Below, piece after piece: positions 7,655 through 21,667 of a DNA stretch of 21,667 nucleotides; within the stretch, counting starts at the first letter, position 1, and each line of letters starts with the position of its first letter. The DNA is from a virus. The notes under the pieces are model-generated. The model did no database searches and had not been told where the DNA came from. It was given only the letters and a program-made list of their open reading frames with translations. The position numbers were made by a program, and so were the translations under genes. The DNA lies in IMG/VR virus record IMGVR_UViG_3300024265_000221, positions 1 through 21,667 of that record; one strand, 5' to 3'.

Positions 7655-8351
7655 AATACACTTCCCACTTCCTGCTCGATGCTCCAAAGCAACAAGATCG
7701 TATCAAACATTTGCTCATCTTCATTGTAAAATTTTAGTATAGAACTTACTGCATGAAGATTTAATCCTACTACAGTGCCGTCCATTCCCGCTCGAAGTTT
7801 TTGATTACGACATAGAACGTAGAGCTTCCATGCTCTACGATTCTCTATGTCTAACTCAACATAACAGGTTGGGCACGGTGGCTCTTTGCCACTTCCTAAA
7901 TATAGTTCTACACAGTCGTCTCCGCAGATTTTTCCTCTTCCGCTGAGCCGCCATCGAGCGAACCTTTCAAGTTTTTTGCTCGGGCCGCCTCAATGGTCTT
8001 ATTCTCATCAACCAACTTTTCTATACTCTCTCCAATAAATGTTCGGAAATCTGTAATTAGCATCATCTTTTCGATGTTATCATAGTTGCATTCTAGTTCC
8101 ACACCATCAAGACTGATTCCTTTCCAATCCATGATGAACTTCCGCAAACTTAATTTTGCAGAAAGTTCTATATCTACTCTTTCCGTCTCATATCTTTGTC
8201 CTCTGTGATAATCTACATCAGTTGATTGTTTAGTAAGTACTTTAATAGAATCGTACTCGTCGATTGTTGGTTTGCGTAGAAGTACACCATCGGGTCCACC
8301 TTTAATAGGATGGAACCAAGTACCTTCATCTTTTGTCTTAAATTCTAACAT
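7651..8351 (-). CDS. Tail assembly chaperone GT-like fusion made by -1 frameshift (233 aa)
   Basis: Shifting back one base at the A AAA AAC heptamer (7971-7977) moves the chaperone into an open frame that ends with TGA at 7651-7653, overlapping the tape-measure ATG. The added ~107 residues look like real protein: KICGDDCVELYLGSGKEPPC, CPTCYVELDIENRRAWKLYV and SILKFYNEDEQMFDTILLLW, with CxxxC/CPTC cysteine pairs. The -1 frame is closed by TGA a few codons before the heptamer and open from there to the end, as expected for programmed frameshifting. Gene order (tube, chaperones, tape measure) matches the lambda G/GT arrangement, in which the fusion binds tape measure and tube subunits. The efficiency of the shift is unknown. 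Confidence 0.85.
7908..8351 (-). CDS. Tail assembly chaperone G-like (147 aa)
   Basis: This is the zero-frame product upstream of the tape measure. The protein is charged, with MLEFKTKDEGTWFHPIKGGP at the start, a helical middle (SAKLSLRKFIMDWKGISLDG, NIEKMMLITDFRTFIGESIE) and an acidic tail. By position and by the frameshift site in its last codons it corresponds to lambda gpG. Its ATG lies 14 nt inside the preceding HNH gene, with SD AAAGG. It is needed for tail assembly and is not expected in the finished virion. Confidence 0.8.
   Translation of the reverse strand: MLEFKTKDEGTWFHPIKGGPDGVLLRKPTIDEYDSIKVLTKQSTDVDYHRGQRYETERVDIELSAKLSLRKFIMDWKGISLDGVELECNYDNIEKMMLITDFRTFIGESIEKLVDENKTIEAARAKNLKGSLDGGSAEEEKSAETTV
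7971..7977 (-). promoter_or_regulatory. Slippery heptamer A AAA AAC for -1 frameshift
   Basis: Read on the minus strand in the chaperone frame, the codons are GCA AAA AAC TTG, so the heptamer has the required X XXY YYZ phase. The last -1-frame stop (TGA) lies a few codons upstream and the zero-frame stop (TAG) at 7908-7910, which brackets the shift to about 80 nt. A second A-run (GAG GAA AAA TCT, near 7930) is in a less favourable phase. Confidence 0.85.
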
Positions 8352-8697
8352 AATGTTGAGCCTTTCTTTCTAAATAATAATATGCTTTTAATAACATCTC
8401 TGAATCATCTGAAAAAGAACCTAATCCAAAGTTACATTTTGTACAAAGTAAACCTCTTGCTTTATTAGTTTTGTGATCGTGGTCTACACTCAAACGATAA
8501 ACAGTTCCATCGGACTTTTTCTTCGTTTCTGGTTTACCACAAATGGCACAGAGGCCTTCTTGTCTTTTAACTAATATCTTGTGAATTTCATCCGATAGCA
8601 TTAATTTTCCATGCCAAAGATGAAAGTGCAGACTTGTGCCGCCTTTCCAATTACCATTATTTTCACGTGTCTGTGCTTCTGATTGTCTTTTAGACAT
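8338..8697 (-). CDS. Endonuclease VII-like HNH endonuclease, free-standing homing type (119 aa)
   Basis: The motif set is CAIC (Cys50, Cys53), LSVDHDHKT (residues 69-77) and RGLLCTKCN (Cys85, Cys88): a zinc-coordinating beta-beta-alpha HNH fold of the recombination endonuclease VII (T4 gp49) family. An N-terminal NNGNWKGG segment recalls DNA-binding modules of HNH homing enzymes. I chose ATG 8697, which has an SD (GAGGGAG); the upstream in-frame ATG at 8760 has none. It is inserted between tail tube and chaperone genes, a typical place for a homing endonuclease. The HNH core is clearly homologous to the protein at 16784-17230. Confidence 0.88.
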   Translation of the reverse strand: MSKRQSEAQTRENNGNWKGGTSLHFHLWHGKLMLSDEIHKILVKRQEGLCAICGKPETKKKSDGTVYRLSVDHDHKTNKARGLLCTKCNFGLGSFSDDSEMLLKAYYYLERKAQHYVRI

Positions 8698-8702
8698 AAC
8701 AT

Positions 8703-8721
8703 CTCCCTCATAAAAAGGGAA
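8703..8721 (-). promoter_or_regulatory. Hairpin covering the Shine-Dalgarno of the HNH gene
   Basis: On the minus strand TTCCCT (8721-8716), a 7-nt loop TTTTATG and AGGGAG (8708-8703) can form a 6-bp stem with one G-U pair. AGGGAG is the SD of the gene starting at 8697. Sequestered SDs are known for phage homing endonuclease genes, where they limit translation from read-through transcripts. Confidence 0.5.
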
Positions 8722-8775
8722 AGTTCCAGGTAGATGAGGGTCTACCCAGAAACCTTCCATTTAAGATCTACTAGT

Positions 8776-11445: not shown

Positions 11446-12456
11446 TTACACATACTGGCCTCTTATTACTGCCATAGGACGAGTGCAAACACAAAGTGGA
11501 TTACTCTGCGTTTCAATCTCGATACCTTTATCAAACTTCATTACTGCAGTTTTGGCGTAATACTGAATACCGAGGGTATTTGCGGCCTCAACATAATCTG
11601 CCGGAGCAAAATACGTTTTGAACAAATCAGGAACACCTACTGGGAAGAAGAACGCATTACCCGGAGCACCTGCAGCTACTGTTGGAATAAATGCTGTCGT
11701 ACCAACACTACCTGTATACTCTTCGAAGACGATACCGCAATACTCAAATCCTGCTCGCATATCACTACGGGCAAGAGCACCATGATTCCATAAAGCATAA
11801 GCTGCTACAACACCGGCCTCATTAACAAGCAGGTCGAAGAAAGTGGAATTGCAGAAACAATGAATATGGTCATACAACTGTGCACCAAGATTCGCTTCCA
11901 TAGCTCGTTTCACTGCCTTACAAGAATCTTTAATAGACGGTGTAGCAGCAGTAAAATCAAATTCAATAACATCTGGTGTACATTCAAACTCTTCCCACAG
12001 ATTATGTACCACTGTGGTTCCGTTAGCATCTAACACGATACCTTGGATTGCACCTAAACGATGGTATTCCAAAGTTAGATCATGATCTCGCCGCATACCG
12101 GCGATTTTCTCATCTACTAACTGTGCAACAGTTTGCTTCTCATTTTCACTTCCAAATGCACGAACCCCTTGTACATCATCTGCCATAACAGTGGCAAGCT
12201 TCTGTAAATGCGGACATCGCAATGTTCTCAATGTTCGCTTTTCCGGAGTATGAATCACACCCGGAGTACCTCTCGCACTTGTTGGAATTAGCGAGATTAC
12301 TTTATCCTTTTCTTCAATGGCAACATCTACAGACTTTACGCCCTTTGTACTAAAGATGCCCATCTTTTCAATGCGTGTAGGCGTGGCAGGAATCCGATTA
12401 ATTGCATCGGTCAGTTCCACACACCTATAAGCACTGTCTCTAAAAATGTCTAACAT
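11446..12456 (-). CDS. Major capsid protein, lambda gpE-like (336 aa)
   Basis: Length and pattern fit the lambda gpE family: TDAINRIPATPTRIEKMGIF near the N-terminus, then PTSARGTPGVIHTPEKRTLR, VADDVQG-type MADDVQGVRAFGSENEKQ, NPLCVCTRPMAVIRGQYV at the end, and the GIVFEEYTG and AYALWNHGALARSDMRAGF segments. The SD AAAGGATAATAAAA precedes the ATG. The gene directly follows the decoration gene and is followed by a terminator. It assembles the HK97-fold icosahedral shell. Confidence 0.88.
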   Translation of the reverse strand: MLDIFRDSAYRCVELTDAINRIPATPTRIEKMGIFSTKGVKSVDVAIEEKDKVISLIPTSARGTPGVIHTPEKRTLRTLRCPHLQKLATVMADDVQGVRAFGSENEKQTVAQLVDEKIAGMRRDHDLTLEYHRLGAIQGIVLDANGTTVVHNLWEEFECTPDVIEFDFTAATPSIKDSCKAVKRAMEANLGAQLYDHIHCFCNSTFFDLLVNEAGVVAAYALWNHGALARSDMRAGFEYCGIVFEEYTGSVGTTAFIPTVAAGAPGNAFFFPVGVPDLFKTYFAPADYVEAANTLGIQYYAKTAVMKFDKGIEIETQSNPLCVCTRPMAVIRGQYV

Positions 12457-12488
12457 TTTTATTATCCTTTCAAATACTTAAACTTAGT

Positions 12489-13235
12489 TTACGCCCTTGG
12501 CAAACCGGTTGTTGATACTGTAGCCTGTGGACGACACTGTATTCCTACTGCTTCAAGAGCGGTAACAAGATCCGCAAGCGTACCAGCACTTCTATGCAAC
12601 TGATCTTGATTCACAATCGAAGGTCCACGCACTAAACATGGTCTTCGCAGTGATTCACCATCACCATTTTTTAACTCCCAAAGACTAACTGGAGCAAGCA
12701 AAACACGAGTAACACTAGCAGCAGTCAACGTATTACTATTCGTTGTTAATTCACCAGCAGTCGTAGTTGCAATTGTAATCGTTGCCTCAGCAGCACCAGC
12801 AGTCAGCAATAATCTCGTATCAAAGATAAGATCCGCGGGATTACCAAGCGTGTTCAACCAGGTAAACGTGTTAGTGCTCACCATCGAGTCACCACCAACG
12901 TTTGCAAAGATGATATCGCCCGCAGTTCCACCAGCTCTGACAACTGCTAAGTCGAGTGCCGTGTTAATCTGGGCAACAGTGGCATCCCAAGCGATTGATG
13001 CTGTCGTATGACCTTTGACTGTGATTGTAAATGTACCACTTGCCGAAGCAGCAGCCATCGTTACGGTCTGGACAGCAGGTACCGCAGCAGCTTCTGCTCC
13101 CATACCTTCGCCAATATCGTAACCTTCTGTTGCGGCGAGTACACGAGTAATTTCAAACTGTTCACGACAATATTCTAATGGCTCTTCCATTACCAATACG
13201 TCGCCTAAAACTTTTCCTTCGGATATTGAATCCAT
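12489..13235 (-). CDS. Head decoration protein, gpD-like, with inserted beta domain (248 aa)
   Basis: The ends of the protein look like a lambda gpD-type decoration protein: SISEGKVLGDVLVMEEPLEY and CREQFEITRVLAATEGYDIG at the start, and LLAPVSLWE, RRPCLVRGPSIVNQDQLH, LADLVTALEAVGIQCRP at the end. Between them, about residues 55-170, sits a separate Thr/Ala-rich module (VQTVTMAAASASGTFTITVK, GHTTASIAWDATVAQINTAL) found in many phage surface proteins. The inserted module roughly doubles the usual ~115-residue length. It should stabilise the capsid and expose the extra domain outside. Confidence 0.75.
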   Translation of the reverse strand: MDSISEGKVLGDVLVMEEPLEYCREQFEITRVLAATEGYDIGEGMGAEAAAVPAVQTVTMAAASASGTFTITVKGHTTASIAWDATVAQINTALDLAVVRAGGTAGDIIFANVGGDSMVSTNTFTWLNTLGNPADLIFDTRLLLTAGAAEATITIATTTAGELTTNSNTLTAASVTRVLLAPVSLWELKNGDGESLRRPCLVRGPSIVNQDQLHRSAGTLADLVTALEAVGIQCRPQATVSTTGLPRA

Positions 13236-13266: not shown

Positions 13267-14241
13267 TTAATCTTTCAGGCCGGCAGCTTTTCTTCGTTTG
13301 TCAACCAACTTCGCAAGTTCACTCTTCTGATCTACACGAGCATTAGACAATTCCAAATTCTGAACACCGGTAATACCGTTCAGCTTGACAGCCTTATTCT
13401 GCACTAGTATATCATGCCAGAAATCAAAACCATCATCACCTTTAGACATCGATAATGTTAATGATCCTGTCTCAACATACTTGGCAGTGATTGCATCCTT
13501 AACCGCAGGTATAATAATTCCTGTCTGGAGCAACATATCCAACTGTTGTGCTCGCTGTCTACTCAGCATCTTCACTACAACTGCTGAATTCGAACTCGAC
13601 TTATTTGATAACTCAATACCTTCTGTCTTCACAACAAGAGGATTCTTCATGAGTTTCTCTACCTCTGACGCGACCAACTCTTCAGTTGGAGCATCGTTGG
13701 ACAGGCCAAGGGCTTTCGCAATTTTCTCGACAAATTTCATATTTACATCTCCAATACTTAAACTCAAAACTTCAAAATTTTCTAGACCACCAATAACGGG
13801 GTCTACGCATAATGCTACATGTGTAATAGGACAATTGTACACATTGCCCTTACCATCCATTTTCTTACCAACCACCATACCAATACTGACATCTGTAGTA
13901 AGTGCTAATTTGGGATCTACTAGTCCCATTATTCCAAATAAGCTGTTGCCCTCAACCACCATATTGGTCACCCAACCCTGATTATCTTCTGGACTATCCG
14001 TCCAATCATGATTAAGTGTAATAGGAACCTTATTGCCATTTTTGATATAGAGATCGAATGTCCTTGCAAAGTGAGCTAATACAACTGGTGTAACCTCGAA
14101 TGGTTGGCCATCTGCAGGATGTATATATTTACCAACTTTGATAAGCTCCTTACGATACTGTGTCAAGCCTCCATTATTCAATCCTAGGTTTGAGGCCGGC
14201 AAAGTTTGTAGTTGCAATATAACGTTCTTATGATTGCTCAT
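13267..14241 (-). CDS. Mu I-like head maturation protease with C-terminal scaffold region (324 aa)
   Basis: Segments LIKVGKYIHPADGQPFEVTP, KVPITLNHDWTDSPEDNQGW, GNSLFGIMGLVDPKLALTTD and PITHVALCVDPVIGGLENFE follow the Mu protein I protease pattern, with a conserved His in LNHDW and a T/S-containing core. The part after about residue 165 (MKFVEKIAKALGLSNDAPTE, VASEVEKLMKN) is helical and may act as scaffold. An internal ATG at MKFVEK could start a separate scaffold, as in lambda-type nested genes, but this is inference. SD GGAGGT is good. The start overlaps the portal stop by 14 nt. Confidence 0.75.
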   Translation of the reverse strand: MSNHKNVILQLQTLPASNLGLNNGGLTQYRKELIKVGKYIHPADGQPFEVTPVVLAHFARTFDLYIKNGNKVPITLNHDWTDSPEDNQGWVTNMVVEGNSLFGIMGLVDPKLALTTDVSIGMVVGKKMDGKGNVYNCPITHVALCVDPVIGGLENFEVLSLSIGDVNMKFVEKIAKALGLSNDAPTEELVASEVEKLMKNPLVVKTEGIELSNKSSSNSAVVVKMLSRQRAQQLDMLLQTGIIIPAVKDAITAKYVETGSLTLSMSKGDDGFDFWHDILVQNKAVKLNGITGVQNLELSNARVDQKSELAKLVDKRRKAAGLKD

Positions 14242-15484
14242 CGGCTACCTCCTTTTCTTCAGGTTTAACACCCTCATTTATGGGAATATCTAATTCTTCT
14301 TTAAGTGCATTAGTATCAACGGTAACACCGTCTGTTGGAACTAACGCCAAGTACAACTTACGTAAAAACTCTGACTGTAAATCAACCAGTGGAGCAGCTA
14401 CGAGACGAACCTTTCCCACCATCTGTGGACCAAAGTTCAACAGTAGAAGTTGGTCAACTGCCTGTTCGTTAACTATTTGAGTAATTGTACGATCAATCAT
14501 TTGCATACTGGTTACAGCCAAACCAATATGTTCACCAGCTTCTGCCTTGGTACCGTGCATACCTTCCAGCATACTACGTTCAGGTAAAATAAGACCGCGT
14601 ATCTTAAGAGAATCAAGATACTTCAATCTATCACCAAATGCTGCCTGTCCACTACCTTCAGTCTCAATTAACTCTACCTGCCAAGTATAAAGCTGTGTAA
14701 TGTCTGCACGATTCAGTTCTTGAACAAATTCAGCTACCGTACTTGGAATAACTATACTACCACTGCTAATCAACGAACCAAGCATCTCCATTGCCATATC
14801 ATAATTATCAGTAGTTACGTTATCAATTGTAGTGTTACCTACCGGATATCTTATCACCCAATGTGCACCAGCTAATTTTAGGTCATATCGTTCTGCACCA
14901 TCATTGCAAGCATCCCACATTGTTTGTGCAGCACGTACATTCTCCAGTAATGGATAACCATAAAGATTTCCAGCCTCAACATCGAAATTAACAAGAAAAC
15001 TATTTTCATAAGGTACGTCAATATATTGACCACCTAAAGGAGTTTGTCTGAATCCTGCAAAGTGACCACGAGGGTCTACCAGAATAGATGTCATATCTAC
15101 TAATAGTTCCTTAAACTCGGAGATGATAAGACGACCATCTTTAACTGTAAATATCTTCTCAAATGGTGCAAAGCCATAATCAATTCGTCCATAGCTTACT
15201 GCCGACTGTATTAACTTTGCTCTCAATGGCAAAAATATTTTCTTGATAAATTCCTCAACTTCATCACTTACACCCTCATCCTTCTCAACTCCCCAAGAAC
15301 CTGACTGTATGCCATTGACAAGTAGCCCTCGACCTAATGCTACAGTGGGATCTTTCCTCAATGCCCGGAGTTCTGTAAATGTCCCCATATCTGTAATACT
15401 ACGATGGAGTTTCCCGTCATAAGTCAGATACCCTACTTGTTGTGTACCTGTTATTTCACTTGTTGGGATGTTCGAATCAACCAC
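14228..15484 (-). CDS. Portal protein, Mu gp29-like (DUF935 type, 418 aa)
   Basis: Segments TELRALRKDPTVALGRGLLV, SVSYGRIDYGFAPFEKIF-type AVSYGRIDYGFAPFEKIF, DPRGHFAGFRQTPLGG, DVEAGNLYGYPLLENVRAAQ and DRLKYLDSLKIRGLILPERS fit Mu-type portal proteins, which form the dodecameric ring for DNA entry and exit. The SD AGGAGG (15495-15490) overlaps a GTG at 15490. The next in-frame GTG at 15484 is 5 nt beyond the SD and is the better start. The gene overlaps the end of the large terminase by 8 nt. Confidence 0.85.
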   Translation of the reverse strand: MVDSNIPTSEITGTQQVGYLTYDGKLHRSITDMGTFTELRALRKDPTVALGRGLLVNGIQSGSWGVEKDEGVSDEVEEFIKKIFLPLRAKLIQSAVSYGRIDYGFAPFEKIFTVKDGRLIISEFKELLVDMTSILVDPRGHFAGFRQTPLGGQYIDVPYENSFLVNFDVEAGNLYGYPLLENVRAAQTMWDACNDGAERYDLKLAGAHWVIRYPVGNTTIDNVTTDNYDMAMEMLGSLISSGSIVIPSTVAEFVQELNRADITQLYTWQVELIETEGSGQAAFGDRLKYLDSLKIRGLILPERSMLEGMHGTKAEAGEHIGLAVTSMQMIDRTITQIVNEQAVDQLLLLNFGPQMVGKVRLVAAPLVDLQSEFLRKLYLALVPTDGVTVDTNALKEELDIPINEGVKPEEKEVADEQS

Positions 15485-16784
15485 GCGCACCTCCTACATT
15501 TATTATACCAACGGACGTTTTTCCTACTGGACGAGCTAACCTCAAAGGCCACAGCTTCCAAAGTATATATCCAAGTGCATCAGTACTGTGTCCTATATCA
15601 CCTGAATCATCTGGCGCTCTCGTTCCAGGTTTGTAAGATCTAACCTTTAAGTCACGAATCAAGTGTGTACATTTTGGATCTATAAATACATGCCTTTGTC
15701 CATCACCACTACAAATCCTAGTGTTGGTTACTGCAAATCTATCTGTCACTAATGGATTTGATCTATCGTAATGAAAAGTACTCCCCATCTCTTTTAGTTT
15801 CTGATTACTTGCAAGCTGAACATAATCAGTCGTTGTAGCACTTGTCTTACGTGCTCTACTTGAAGCATCACCATAAAACTCCCATCCGCCTTTATGATTA
15901 GCATAACGACTTGTGAGTATCTTCAATGTATTTTCAGTATTAGCATTACGAATAAACAATTCGTCAAACACTTCCAATGTTTCACCTTTTCTATGGCCTA
16001 GTACCCAGCACATAGGATCAACATTGTAATCAGAACCTACTATTATCGCGTTGCCGGGATTGTAAGTGCAATGTCGAACGTTGTATTCTTTATCAAAAGC
16101 ATAAAAGATTCCGCCACTTGTGTTTAGCCATTTCGCGTTAAACTGTTCCTCGAAAGTTCTTTCGTCCATTGACTTCCGTGCAAGTTCTACCTCTTCTTCT
16201 GGCAATACTCCTGAAGAAGGCCAAGAGAATCCAGTTGAATCAGGAAGTTCACCAGCTATAGCTGCTTCATACTTTTCTCGGTACTCTACTGCACCTACAC
16301 CAAATCGTTTGCAAACTCCCGTAAACCAACACCATCCATGTCTAGTTACTAATGTACCAAGAATACTATGTTCCCAAGTTCCTGGCTTGATATCACTAGA
16401 TTCATCTATTACACCACCATCTAAAATTCTTCCTTCAATTCGCTGTGGTTGATCAAGGCCTACCACAAATAATTCACTACCGAAGATGGTTCTAATTGTC
16501 AACTCGCTTTTGGACACATCAGAAAGCCACCACGGCGGAATTAGATGTAGTATTCGTTGCCAAGCAATATTTTTCGCTTGTTTGAATGTCGGTGCCGCAT
16601 AAAAGTATCTCGGGTCAGGCCAAGGCTTTGGTTTCTCCAGTGCCTTCACCAATTTTCTCATTGACAGTTCCGTCTTGCCACTTCGTCATTGCCTCCCGCA
16701 GGGGATGTAGACGAAACGTTTTTTACATCTCCATAGAGAGGCTTGCTCCTTATGATAGCGTAGTTGAGGCCACGGCTCGAACAT
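15477..16784 (-). CDS. Terminase large subunit with an in-frame TGA in the Walker A loop
   Basis: From ATG 16784 the frame reads MFEPWPQLRYHKEQASLWRC, then KKRFVYIPCGRQ, a TGA codon (16688-16686, codon 33), then RSGKTELSMRKLVKALEKP and on to 15477. Total length is 435 codons, normal for TerL. The N-terminal LRYHKEQ..LWR and the P-loop match known TerL starts; Walker B is likely GGVIDESSD (Asp127-Glu128 in this numbering). The C-terminal nuclease half shows IVGSDYNVDPMCW, FYGDASSRARK and SGDIGHSTDALGY. The ATG shares bases with the HNH stop (TAATG). Without readthrough, only an ATPase lacking its P-loop would start at ATG 16661. Causes could be a sequencing or assembly error, a damaged allele, readthrough, or RNA processing. 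Confidence 0.85.
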
Positions 16785-17230
16785 TATGAATGTTTCTCCA
16801 AATACAATCTCGCGTTAACAACAAATTCTATATCTTCAAGATACCCAAGTTTCCAGTTACATTGATTACATAACAACCCTCTTACTTCACCGGTTCTATG
16901 ATCATGATCCGTAATCAATCTTTTAAGACTATGTTGATTATGGCAAGTTTCTTCTTTACCACAAATACCACATACCTCACCGTATCTCTCAACCAGTATT
17001 TTATAAACTTTATCTTTTTGAACTTGTTTACCATCGAGTATCAGGTAGGATTTGAATACTCCGCCTGATTTCTTCACTAGAGTTTTCATCAGAGAAGCTT
17101 TCTTATTAGCTACGTGCTCAGCCGTTTGTTTGTAACCTTTCCTAGTTCCTGACTGTGATCGACCTTTAGAAGCTTTGCTTATCTTTCTTCTACGTGCTGC
17201 CTCTTTAACTGGATCTTTACACGCTCCCAT
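16784..17230 (-). CDS. Endonuclease VII-like HNH endonuclease next to the large terminase (148 aa)
   Basis: The core is CGIC (Cys87, Cys90), LITDHDHRTGEVRGLLC (residues 105-121) and CNQCN (Cys121, Cys124), the endonuclease VII-type zinc HNH fold. The basic N-terminus (KEAARRRKISKASKGRSQSG, TRKGYKQTAEHVANKKASL) is probably a DNA-binding arm with NUMOD-like character. SD AGGAG lies 9 nt upstream. The stop overlaps the large-terminase start (TAATG). It could be a homing endonuclease or a packaging-associated nuclease; HNH proteins beside terminases assist cos cleavage in some phages. Its HNH core is homologous to that at 8338-8697. Confidence 0.88.
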   Translation of the reverse strand: MGACKDPVKEAARRRKISKASKGRSQSGTRKGYKQTAEHVANKKASLMKTLVKKSGGVFKSYLILDGKQVQKDKVYKILVERYGEVCGICGKEETCHNQHSLKRLITDHDHRTGEVRGLLCNQCNWKLGYLEDIEFVVNARLYLEKHS

Positions 17231-17249: not shown

Positions 17250-17414
17250 TTATGTTGAGTTATTGTTTAGTATGGCCTCTAAGCCATCGTTGTAGATTTC
17301 ATCAATTTTATCAGATTTAGCCTTGTACTCCTCCAATAAAGCTCTTATAGCTTCTTTTCTTTCTCTCAGGAGCACTTTAGCTTCTTCTGTCTCTAATGCC
17401 TCAATGAGATTCAT
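17250..17414 (-). CDS. Small charged helical protein, unknown (54 aa)
   Basis: The sequence begins MNLIEALETEEAKVLLRERK and is almost wholly helical, with a coiled-coil-like charge pattern (EAIRALLEEYKAKSDKIDEI). I chose ATG 17414, which has an SD (AAAGGAGAAATGAA). An upstream GTG at 17453 lies inside the small-terminase gene and has no clear SD. It sits between the putative small terminase and the HNH gene, so a role in packaging is possible but unproven. Confidence 0.6.
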   Translation of the reverse strand: MNLIEALETEEAKVLLRERKEAIRALLEEYKAKSDKIDEIYNDGLEAILNNNST

Positions 17415-17415
17415 T

Positions 17416-17787
17416 TCATTTCTCCTTTTCTGTTGAGTTTTCTGGATTCTCACTCGATGTAAGATTATCCATATCTTCCACTATTTCCCGAGGACTCCGA
17501 TTCGCCCAATCTCCTTCTGTTGGAACTACAGCTTCTTCCTTAATTCTCTTATCAGCTGTTATCTTCCTCAGTAAAGCAAGGGCTAATGTAGGATTAGAAT
17601 ACGATTTCTCTGTCAAATGCTCTATGATAGTTTTCCCTTTACCAACACTCTTCTTCGCCTTCTTAAAGGCTTTTGCTATAGATTCAGGTGTATAATCCTT
17701 TAGTAACTTTTCAAGTTTCTCGGCATCAGTCTTCTTTTTATTTTTACTGCCTTGTTTCCTTCCGCCTTCTCCCTTCTTGAATGCCAT
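17416..17787 (-). CDS. Putative terminase small subunit (123 aa)
   Basis: The N-terminus MAFKKGEGGRKQGSKNKKKT has the GGR.xGSxNK pattern common at the start of phage small-terminase-like and DUF5681-type DNA-binding proteins. A helical middle (LEKLLKDYTPESIAKAFKKA, NPTLALALLRKITADKRIKE) follows. Position upstream of the large terminase supports the role of recognising phage DNA for packaging. The SD is AGGTG. No helix-turn-helix can be assigned with certainty, so the call rests mostly on position and the N-terminal pattern. Confidence 0.55.
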   Translation of the reverse strand: MAFKKGEGGRKQGSKNKKKTDAEKLEKLLKDYTPESIAKAFKKAKKSVGKGKTIIEHLTEKSYSNPTLALALLRKITADKRIKEEAVVPTEGDWANRSPREIVEDMDNLTSSENPENSTEKEK

Positions 17788-18691: not shown

Positions 18692-18922
18692 CTACTTCCT
18701 ATTTCTTTCTTCTTTTAGTAATTCCAGTGCCCGCGTTAAATTTCTTCGTGTCGCCTCTAAATCAAACTGCTGATACAATACAGAAACTCTCAGATAGTTA
18801 ATCAAGTCCTCAGTAGTTCCAACAAAATGGCCTGGCCAAGATACTCCCAGTATTTCCTGTAGCTCAAATATTTCTTTAATCGTCATCGCCATCTCTAACT
18901 TCTCTGTTAGGCAGCCTGTCAC
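18692..18922 (-). CDS. Small helical protein, unknown (76 aa)
   Basis: The frame starts with GTG 18922, overlapping the TGA of the HNH gene (GTGA), with AAGG upstream. Alternative ATG starts are at 18892 and 18886 (MTIKEIFELQEILGVSWPGH). The protein is helical and ends in a charged coiled-coil-like stretch (FDLEATRRNLTRALELLKEE). No family is recognised. It is translationally coupled to the HNH gene and precedes the two membrane genes. Confidence 0.55.
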   Translation of the reverse strand: MTGCLTEKLEMAMTIKEIFELQEILGVSWPGHFVGTTEDLINYLRVSVLYQQFDLEATRRNLTRALELLKEERNRK

Positions 18923-19320
18923 AGTGCCATCCTTAAAATATCGTCCAAAGGTAATCTTAACCGCCGACTGTTCCGCCGAGTGTTGTTCATATTCTGTCGA
19001 TGGGAGACGAATCTAACGTTTCCGCGTTGGTACCCTCGATTATTATCAATTCTGTCAATATCCAAATTCTCTATCAACTCAAACTTCGAGATATGTAGTT
19101 CATTTACAACGTAATCGTAGAAATCTGCGAACGATAAGAACATGTTCTGGATTCCTCTTCCCCCATAATTATGAAAATCCTTGTGATTTGGCTCCGTACA
19201 TCGTGCATTCAAATCATGATATTTTTGACTCAACCTACATTTTAATGTTCTCGCCCTTTTTGCACTGTAAGCTCTACTTCTTGCTCTTTGTTCCTCTGTA
19301 AGATTCTGTTTCGTTTTCAT
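18919..19320 (-). CDS. HNH homing-type endonuclease (133 aa)
   Basis: Motifs in order are a basic N-terminus (QRARSRAYSAKRARTLKCRL), YGGRGI at 52-57, FLSFADFYDYV at 61-71, LDIDRIDNNRGYQRGNVRFV at 86-105 and SHRQNMNNTRRN after it. This is the common phage HNH pattern YGGRGI...W..F..F...LDRIDNN.GY..GNCRW.....Q..N.R. It lacks the paired cysteines of the endonuclease VII type and so is a different lineage from the other two HNH genes. SD AAAAGGTGG is 4 nt from the ATG. Its leader contains two adjacent hairpins. Confidence 0.88.
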   Translation of the reverse strand: MKTKQNLTEEQRARSRAYSAKRARTLKCRLSQKYHDLNARCTEPNHKDFHNYGGRGIQNMFLSFADFYDYVVNELHISKFELIENLDIDRIDNNRGYQRGNVRFVSHRQNMNNTRRNSRRLRLPLDDILRMAL

Positions 19321-19555: not shown

Positions 19556-19637
19556 ATCGATTTAAATCGATGGGGTCATCGATATATATCGAAGGGGTCA
19601 TCGATTTAAATCGATGGGGTCATCGATTATAATCGAA
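19556..19637. repeat. Palindromic iteron array, candidate origin of replication
   Basis: There are three full 22-bp units and one partial unit at 19556, 19578, 19600 and 19622. Each starts with a dyad TCGAT-4 bases-ATCGA and is followed by (T/A)GGGGTC in the first three. The centres differ (TTTAAA, TATATA, TTTAAA, TTATAA), yet every one remains self-complementary. The 22-bp phasing puts all sites on the same helical face. The array lies 12 bp past the stop of a winged-helix initiator-like gene, in an AT-rich region. Iteron arrays beside initiator genes are typical of theta-replicating plasmids and some phages. An operator array for a dimeric regulator is the main alternative. Confidence 0.75.
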
Positions 19638-19644
19638 TACCCGG

Positions 19645-19663
19645 AAACCTTAATTTAAGGTTT
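19645..19663. repeat. 9-bp perfect dyad over the stop codon of the initiator-like gene
   Basis: AAACCTTAA, one base, then TTAAGGTTT. It spans the TAA stop (19650-19652) and abuts the iteron array. There is no U-run on either strand, so it is not a classic terminator. It may bind the same or another regulator, or mark one edge of the origin. Confidence 0.4.
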
Positions 19664-19973
19664 TCACCAGCTGTTTTTCGATAAGAAATATGTGTCGCGA
19701 GATACCAGATTCATACTCAAGTTTAATGTGACAAGTAGCCTCTAGTGCTGATATCCAACCTGAAATTGTTTCCCTTTTTACTCCATACAATTTGGCAAAA
19801 TACTGATTACTCGCCCAACAGTAGCCTTCTTTGTTACACAAGGCTGAAATTTCCCCGTATAGAAGCTTCTGAGAAGGAGTAAGAGCAAGATCATATCGTA
19901 CGTGTGCAGGAATTACTGCATAAAACGCCGGGCTGCTCTCTGTGATTTGTTCGTTGTTCATTGTTTCCACCAT
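19650..19973 (-). CDS. Winged-helix (HTH_36-like) replication initiator-type protein (107 aa)
   Basis: The segment SPAFYAVIPAHVRYDLALTP followed by SQKLLYGEISALCNKEGYCW, ASNQYFAKLYGVKRETISGW and ISALEATCHIKLEYESG is the pattern of the HTH_36/DnaD-type N-terminal domain seen in phage and plasmid replication initiators. The helix-turn-helix is at about residues 56-78. The protein ends at 107 residues, right after the wing, so the C-terminal DnaB-loader or catalytic domain of longer relatives is missing. SD AAAGGTGG is 4 nt from ATG 19973. The adjacent palindromic iterons are its likely targets, for replication, autoregulation or both. Confidence 0.7.
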   Translation of the reverse strand: MVETMNNEQITESSPAFYAVIPAHVRYDLALTPSQKLLYGEISALCNKEGYCWASNQYFAKLYGVKRETISGWISALEATCHIKLEYESGISRHIFLIEKQLVKTLN

Positions 19974-19994
19974 TCTTCCACCTTTATTAAAAAT

Positions 19995-20027
19995 GACACT
20001 GTCGACCGGTGGATAGCCGACAGTATC
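19995..20027 (-). terminator. Leader hairpin with U-run before the initiator-like gene (attenuator candidate)
   Basis: On the minus strand GATACTGTCG (20027-20018), a 13-nt loop and CGACAGTGTC (20004-19995) form a 10-bp stem with one G-U pair, followed by ATTTTTAAT. It ends about 22 nt before the start codon. It could terminate most transcripts before the initiator gene, as in plasmid copy-control attenuators, or be an operator. Confidence 0.5.
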
Positions 20028-20066
20028 GAAGTGCGTTTGAAGATATGCCTATCTTCTCTCACTATA

Positions 20067-20080
20067 ATTATACGTATAAT
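20067..20080. promoter_or_regulatory. 14-bp palindrome ATTATACGTATAAT, possible -10/operator
   Basis: This perfect dyad contains TATAAT on both strands. On the minus strand it is upstream of the initiator-like gene, but the best -35 candidates (TACAAG or TTACAA at 18-19 bp) are weak. A promoter overlapped by an operator is plausible. Confidence 0.35.
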
Positions 20081-20255
20081 ATCATGAAGTCTTGTAAATT
20101 CTACAACTTTATTCGATACCCGAAATTCGAAAACTGTGGTAACTACTTAAGTCATATGGAGTTACATTTTCGCCGAATTTTCGCCCTATCTCCCGGGTAC
20201 AATACTATAACTATAGTCCTACCCGTTCACTATTAGAACGTAGTTGAAAATGTTC

Positions 20256-20285
20256 TTGACTCACCGTATTATACATTCTTATACT
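20256..20285 (+). promoter_or_regulatory. Rightward sigma70-type promoter
   Basis: TTGACT (20256-20261, 5 of 6) and TATACT (20280-20285, 5 of 6) with an 18-bp spacer. Transcription would start near 20292 and immediately enter the 20310-20382 hairpin. No plus-strand gene follows, so any product would be a non-coding or antisense RNA. Confidence 0.5.
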
Positions 20286-20309
20286 ACAAGTGATTCTATC
20301 ATATAAAAA

Positions 20310-20382
20310 ATGGTCGGAGTAACTTGATAAATAATTTGTAAGGGTGTTTTTGGCAAATATTTATGCGTTCAACTCCGACCAT
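20310..20382 (-). terminator. 73-nt long imperfect hairpin with U-run (terminator or structured RNA)
   Basis: ATGGTCGGAGT (20382-20372 on the minus strand) pairs perfectly with ACTCCGACCAT (20320-20310). Inside, ATAAAT pairs with ATTTAT and ATTTG with CAAAT, separated by small bulges, leaving a 16-nt apical loop. That gives 22 bp in 73 nt. On the minus strand TTTTT and AT-rich sequence follow, so it may terminate the late transcript about 280 nt past the tail-tip stop. The internal structure is more elaborate than a usual terminator, and the plus-strand copy folds equally well. Confidence 0.6.
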
Positions 20383-20470
20383 CCACATTCATATACGCCA
20401 GATGTATCTGACAGATTCGCTTAATAAACTGTCCCTCCACGTATAGTAACATAAACACAATACACAACTC

Positions 20471-20484
20471 ACCTAATCTTAGGT
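20471..20484. repeat. Short dyad ACCTAA-TC-TTAGGT
   Basis: A 6-bp inverted repeat with a 2-bp spacer in the non-coding control region. It could be a regulator site. Its length is near what chance allows in an AT-rich stretch. Confidence 0.3.
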
Positions 20485-20661
20485 TCAAGTGTGATACCAA
20501 CGAACCGGGTGAATTTTATGAAAATTTTGTTGACAAACTTTTACTTGAGTGCCTATTCTTAACCTGTGTTTCATAGAGTATTCTGTAAAATTATACCCAT
20601 CTCACTATTTTATCCATGGCAGAGGCTGCTAGGCGGCTTCTTAGAGTGAATAAACACCATA

Positions 20662-21667
20662 CTACTTCCCTTTGTGCTCTAACAGGGACTCGTCAATATC
20701 AAATGCTTCTATAGGCCCGTGAGTACCGGTGACGGATATTATGTAAATATCTATATCATATTGCTTATTACCTGCTCCTGGTTGATCAATCGACATAATA
20801 TTTGGATGGGCTGCCTCCCCAGCATCACAAGAAAAGTTATTTTCAGCAATCGTTGTGCCATCACGTTGAATACGTATTTTTCCCAATATAGCCCGATATG
20901 ACCAAGGAGGTAAAGGTTCTTGGCTATAAACTCCACAGGATGAGGCAGATATTATAACACGCGCCTCACTTGGGATAGTTAGGGACATGATCTCTATCCA
21001 AGAACCAACATGAACTATTTCATCGGCATTATGTCCTGTAATCTCTATATGACCTGCATTGGCCGCTAATTTAGTAGTTCCAACAGACAAGTTATCTATT
21101 TTTGCAGTCTTAACTTGTAGATTTCCTATCTTGGCGTCAGTTACTGCAAGATCATCAATCTTTGCAGAAGTAATTGCAGCATCAGCAATTTGAGCATACT
21201 CAGCGGTAATTGTCCCAGCTTGAATTAGTGCACCATAAATGGAACTAAATATTTCAGTTGGAACAGCAACCCCAGCATTATTATGACATAAGAAAAACTT
21301 ACCGGTTCCTATAGAATCCGCAAAGGTATTTGTAGCATTGAACACTGTGGGATCAGAAATGTCCCAGTAAATGAATTCTGCGGATGTACTATTTTCAGAT
21401 ATTAGATACATAACTCCTTTATACTGGAGTATTATGTCATCTTCAGCGTCTGTTTCAGACCATGAAATAAAACCACCAGATGGATCATTATCACCCCAGG
21501 TTACATTGGATAATTCTAATTTGTTAAAATTAGGAACTAATGCACCTATGTGGCTTATAGCTATGTCCTCTACCTCTCCTCGAGTTATAGGAGGGGTCAG
21601 CTTACTTCTTGGACCAGGCCAAATGAAATTAGCATTAGGATTGGACGGGTCAATTAAGAAAGCTGAC
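20662..21667 (-). CDS. Tail tip/host-specificity protein J-like, C-terminal part
   Basis: The frame enters open from the right edge and ends at TAG 20662. Through the terminal repeat it is the in-frame continuation of the ORF at 1-2123. Visible parts are NPNANFIWPGPRSKLTPPIT, a beta-strand region, then heptad-like repeats (AQIADAAITSAKIDDLAVTD, AKIGNLQVKTAKIDNLSVGT) of the kind that form trimeric stalks at the end of J-like proteins, then a ~130-residue beta-rich terminal domain (HADEIVHV-like NADEIVHVGSWIEIMSL, VIISASSCGVYS, KIRIQRDGTTIAENNF), the probable receptor-binding part. An internal ATG at 21411 is not preceded by a good SD and is not the gene start. The last 9 bases of the window differ from the left copy. 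Confidence 0.85.
   Translation of the reverse strand, partial: SAFLIDPSNPNANFIWPGPRSKLTPPITRGEVEDIAISHIGALVPNFNKLELSNVTWGDNDPSGGFISWSETDAEDDIILQYKGVMYLISENSTSAEFIYWDISDPTVFNATNTFADSIGTGKFFLCHNNAGVAVPTEIFSSIYGALIQAGTITAEYAQIADAAITSAKIDDLAVTDAKIGNLQVKTAKIDNLSVGTTKLAANAGHIEITGHNADEIVHVGSWIEIMSLTIPSEARVIISASSCGVYSQEPLPPWSYRAILGKIRIQRDGTTIAENNFSCDAGEAAHPNIMSIDQPGAGNKQYDIDIYIISVTGTHGPIEAFDIDESLLEHKGK
21533..21658. repeat. Terminal direct repeat, right copy
   Basis: Identical to 1-126. The nine bases after it (21659-21667, AAAGCTGAC) do not match the bases following the left copy. They probably are an end-of-assembly error, since the left copy keeps the tail-tip frame equally well. Confidence 0.93.

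Follow-up and report, generated by a model that had tools for sequence, protein, structure and literature searches.

The window analyzed here, the whole 21,667-nt stretch of the environmental phage genome in IMG/VR record IMGVR_UViG_3300024265_000221, encodes a large terminase gene (terL) on the minus strand. Its reading frame (positions 15477 to 16784; 435 codons plus the final stop) is interrupted by TGA at codon 33. An intact portal gene (14228 to 15490, minus strand) comes next after terL, and the order terL, portal, protease, decoration protein, capsid is shared with the group formed by the three closest relatives (L128, L043, and L044). On the other side, an EndoVII-like HNH endonuclease gene (16784 to 17230, minus strand; PF02945, 58.9 bits) overlaps the terL ATG with its TAA stop; the first-pass annotation of this DNA had noted an HNH gene over this start codon. 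Beyond it is a small-terminase-like gene (17416 to 17787, minus strand), assigned by position. In L043 and L044, no HNH gene separates the terS-like gene from terL and the two are immediate neighbors, which identifies the HNH gene in the window as an insertion.

Read from ATG 16784, terL begins with MFEPWPQLRYHKEQASLWRCKKRFVYIPCGRQ, meets the TGA at 16688-16686, and continues with RSGKTELSMRKLVKALEK in one frame down to the stop at 15477. The bases around the interruption are TGC GGG AGG CAA TGA CGA AGT GGC AAG ACG GAA CTG. The stop lies inside the Walker A P-loop (16671 to 16700, minus strand), which reads CGRQ, stop, R, SGKT. Both the TerL-like frame with its in-frame TGA and the placement of that TGA in the P-loop had been reported from the first pass, and both hold. 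A tblastn search of the window with the TerL of L128 returned one alignment (L128 residues 5 to 419, 417 residues, 62% identity, E = 6e-178), which puts the interrupted terL far beyond chance. The sole gap in its P-loop region is two residues, the stop and R, with CGRQ and SGKTEL on either side. Downstream of the stop, the frame also has a match to a PHROG family of large terminase subunits (phrog_10250, E = 7e-21). Overall, homology to large terminases spans the ATPase and nuclease domains, but the Walker A P-loop is interrupted.

Deletion of six bases restores a normal P-loop, as first proposed, but not the six originally named. The first-pass annotation had removed CAATGA, giving CGRRSGKTEL. 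The P-loop is uninterrupted in L128, L043, and L044 and reads CGRQSGKTEL in all three, with Gln and no second Arg ahead of SGKT. The extra bases are therefore TGACGA (16683 to 16688, minus strand), placed after the ancestral CAA codon, between Gln32 (CAA) and Ser35 (AGT); ATGACG is an equivalent placement. CAATGA is ruled out and would suit only a P-loop of the type found in the more distant relative L040 (SGRRSGKT). The hexamer is neither a tandem copy nor a direct duplication of its flanks, and no significant template for it was found. One candidate template, an upstream TTCGTC with an inverted match of 6 nt, was rejected given that 8% of all hexamers match likewise. A second CAATGA occurs 28 bases downstream, which we judge to be a post hoc observation.

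The interruption is unique among the relatives found. Of the distinct TerL relatives in the loci retrieved, 104 include the P-loop region, and it is uninterrupted in every one. A search for the pattern GR-Q-stop-x-(S)GKTE across 2.9 million viral contigs detected no other terL with this stop; its two matches were rejected as chance frames containing many stops. Peptide-derived DNA patterns identified no closer relatives in a collection that may omit records very near the window, and TerL protein identity to L128, L043, and L044 is about 60-62%. The first-pass annotation had pointed to relatives with the same TGA and a separate intact terL as grounds for abandoning its reading. No such relatives appeared in these surveys, and tblastn with the L128 TerL found no second terL in the window, which closes as a circle and holds this terL alone.

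An exact 126-bp overlap between its ends (1 to 126, identical to 21533-21658), within one gpJ-like tail gene, makes it near-certain that the window is a circular contig, complete at 21,532 bp. Once joined, the two halves of this gene are colinear with its uninterrupted counterpart in L044. The linear classification of the contig is probably owed to nine stray, non-matching bases (AAAGCTGAC) that follow the right copy of the repeat. Eight of the nine are the reverse complement of a segment about 60 bp upstream, a fold-back-like arrangement. Genes of the L044 contig (IMGVR_UViG_3300005253_000083, analyzed as L155 and L156; 23,311 bp) follow the same circular order from a different opening point, which suggests a group of phages with small genomes of roughly 21-24 kb.

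Apart from the interruption, terL is intact and shows no sign of decay. Compared three ways with L128 and L044, the window has 62 unique changes in terL (versus 39 and 38), 82 in the portal (versus 31 and 44), 65 in the decoration protein (versus 20 and 20), and 124 in the major capsid protein (versus 16 and 14). The excess in terL is thus smaller than that in the portal, decoration protein, or major capsid, and a comparison that included the protease likewise revealed no excess divergence of terL against portal, protease, or capsid. An old pseudogene is unsupported, as terL carries no surplus of unique changes relative to neighboring genes. This lack of pseudogene-like drift points either to a recent lesion or to a gene that still functions. 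An intact, undiverged remainder is expected if the break is recent, and an otherwise intact terL is equally compatible with functional recoding.

Our preferred reading, held with about even confidence, is a recent in-frame 6-bp loss-of-function insertion (TGACGA) in the single terL that this genome copy carries. The insertion would introduce a stop after codon 32, at which translation would end, leaving a stub. The longest stop-free terL open reading frame (15477 to 16661, minus strand; 394 aa) starts at an internal ATG and retains the Walker B motif VIDE and the conserved nuclease-domain aspartates but not Walker A. Re-initiation at this ATG (16661) would accordingly yield a 394-codon product that lacks Walker A. 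The packaging motor would be inactive and the genome copy defective. It could be a dead copy, whether prophage or phage-plasmid, or a mutant that persists beside wild-type relatives. We infer that the insertion exists in actual DNA molecules and that the gene is not rescued by recoding.

For replication, the genome shows only a gene for a 107-aa HTH_36 replication-type protein (19650-19973), and just downstream of its gene are 3.7 copies of a 22-bp iteron, ATCGATTTAAATCGATGGGGTC (19556-19636), a possible plasmid-like origin. Relatives of the HTH_36 protein take two forms: stand-alone 107-aa genes with a second replication gene after them, and N-terminal portions of longer proteins (about 258-281 aa). 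The AAA_25/Toprim primase-helicase-like protein of L044 has no match in the window. The combination of a 107-aa HTH gene, iterons, and no primase-helicase match fits a defective or incomplete genome. The interval from the tail gene to the HTH gene (19973-20660, about 690 bp) contains no convincing open reading frame and no Rfam match. The genome may be functionally incomplete, or a plasmid-like prophage; either state would allow persistence with a dead terminase.

The evidence for the six bases comes from a single contig, and the mutation could thus be an assembly error. Amplification or assembly error in a genome whose true terL is intact is the main rival, ranked not far below a null allele, and we regard it as possible though on the unlikely side. 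The fold-back-like bases at the right end of the contig resemble those of fold-back chimeras. A related record offers a precedent: the portal gene of L044 is frame-broken (L155:11555-12000 and the start of L156; record 11555-13055), and the joint translates as GLGDVYKRQ, which we take to be Nextera transposon sequence. This break is apparently an adapter-derived assembly artifact in the public record, so such records do contain artifacts. The terL hexamer, however, is not adapter-like and, as noted, copies neither its flanks nor any significant template. A clean in-frame 6-bp insertion is also atypical as an Illumina error, and none of the other window genes checked has an interior stop. If the allele is dead or mis-assembled, its significance is as a caution on reading single metagenomic contigs, and no more.

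The alternative to a broken gene is a terL that is decoded across the stop. Reassignment of TGA as a sense codon throughout the genome was rejected, in agreement with the first-pass annotation: TGA terminates five genes, interior stops are confined to terL among the genes checked, with 17250-17427 set aside because its start had been misplaced, and no suppressor tRNA or other tRNA was found in the window. UGA followed by C is a weak, leaky stop, and the UGA in terL has C next. This context, with a frame that remains open downstream, might permit readthrough, in which UGA would be decoded as an amino acid and a TerL longer by two residues would function. We consider this very improbable. The product would gain two residues in the loop, with the position five before the G of GKT changed from C to R, and extra loop residues occur in 0 of the 104 relatives. 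The five genes that end in TGA and the lack of a suppressor tRNA in the window also argue against it.

An in-frame stop hop over UGA is the sole translational route that would give exactly the P-loop of the relatives. In such a hop, made by a fraction of ribosomes, peptidyl-tRNA-Gln would sit on CAA with UGA in the A site and would re-pair on CGA, six bases on. Decoding would then resume at AGT, and the nine bases would specify one Gln, producing CGRQSGKTEL. Specification of one amino acid by 9 nt is known from synthetic constructs (PMC5009743). The weak UGA-C context noted above would favor a hop as well. Nevertheless, we think a stop hop improbable. Known stop hops rely on matched codons, but CGA and CAA agree at only two positions of three. 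The RNA can form a hairpin around the site, though one of unexceptional stability (z = -1.37; 18 of 200 shuffles were as stable), and there is no conspicuous stimulator. The site is absent from the relatives surveyed, which leaves the hop without support from conservation. According to a 2016 review, natural examples of in-frame stop hops are not known (PMC5009743).

Gene 60 of phage T4 provides the closest parallel, with a stop directly after a sense codon, an essential gene, and a homing endonuclease gene (MobA) beside the bypassed insert, much as an HNH gene adjoins terL here (PMC5009743). The T4 system differs in having a gap of 50 nt, GGA codons that match perfectly, stimulation by the nascent peptide and by a stem-loop, and a demonstrated protein (PMC5009743), whereas the window has a 6-nt insert, a mismatched landing codon, and a putative product. 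By extension of this parallel, a natural stop hop (CAA-UGA-CGA read as one Gln) could keep the motor alive while the six bases protect terL against the HNH endonuclease encoded next to it, in a pared-down form of the MobA/gene 60 arrangement. We rate this combined proposal as improbable too, slightly more so than the hop by itself. Were TerL made across the stop, this would be the first in-frame stop hop found in nature, and a match in six bases for the gene 60 cassette. Discontinuous decoding, as a candidate bypass, has also been suggested for the terminase gene of Streptomyces phage Hau3; that case is centered on a UUA codon and involves no stop hop in the P-loop (PMC5009743).

In contrast to these decoding routes, the insertion could be a scar of imprecise repair, following either cleavage by the adjoining HNH endonuclease or loss of an intron or intein. 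We view this as unlikely. The position of the EndoVII-like gene gives it some appeal: it is an additional gene between the terS-like gene and terL relative to L043 and L044, and its overlap with the terL start is 96 bp before the six-base site. Cleavage followed by filling-in of the ends is expected to leave a direct duplication, which is absent, and the best inverted match (6 nt) is of the length expected for 8% of random hexamers. Moreover, HNH/EndoVII-like genes beside terminase genes are common without such a lesion.

The first-pass annotation had connected the site with a known insertion point for mobile elements in the P-loop, a link that closer comparison does not support. Mycobacteriophage TerL1-a inteins sit between the P-loop Lys and Thr, and TerL1-b inteins one residue away (PMC5050341). 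They interrupt the Walker A loop of terL, as does the insertion in the window, but the six bases are between Q and S, three codons earlier, and contain no intein sequence. No Rfam match to an intron RNA was found in the window.

A second EndoVII-like HNH gene (8338-8760) is 42% identical to the one before terL. It has been inserted between two tail genes that L044 has side by side, with a 14-base overlap into the start of the gene that follows, and it counts as a point in favor of the scar reading. Both EndoVII-like genes are inserted between genes that are neighbors in relatives and in this respect resemble free-standing homing endonuclease cassettes. Nothing found connects the six bases to either gene. 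Among the other loci, one HNH relative alone shares a locus with terL, and it is not adjacent to it. A third HNH endonuclease gene (18919-19320) is unrelated to the other two; three HNH genes is a high load for a 21.5-kb genome.
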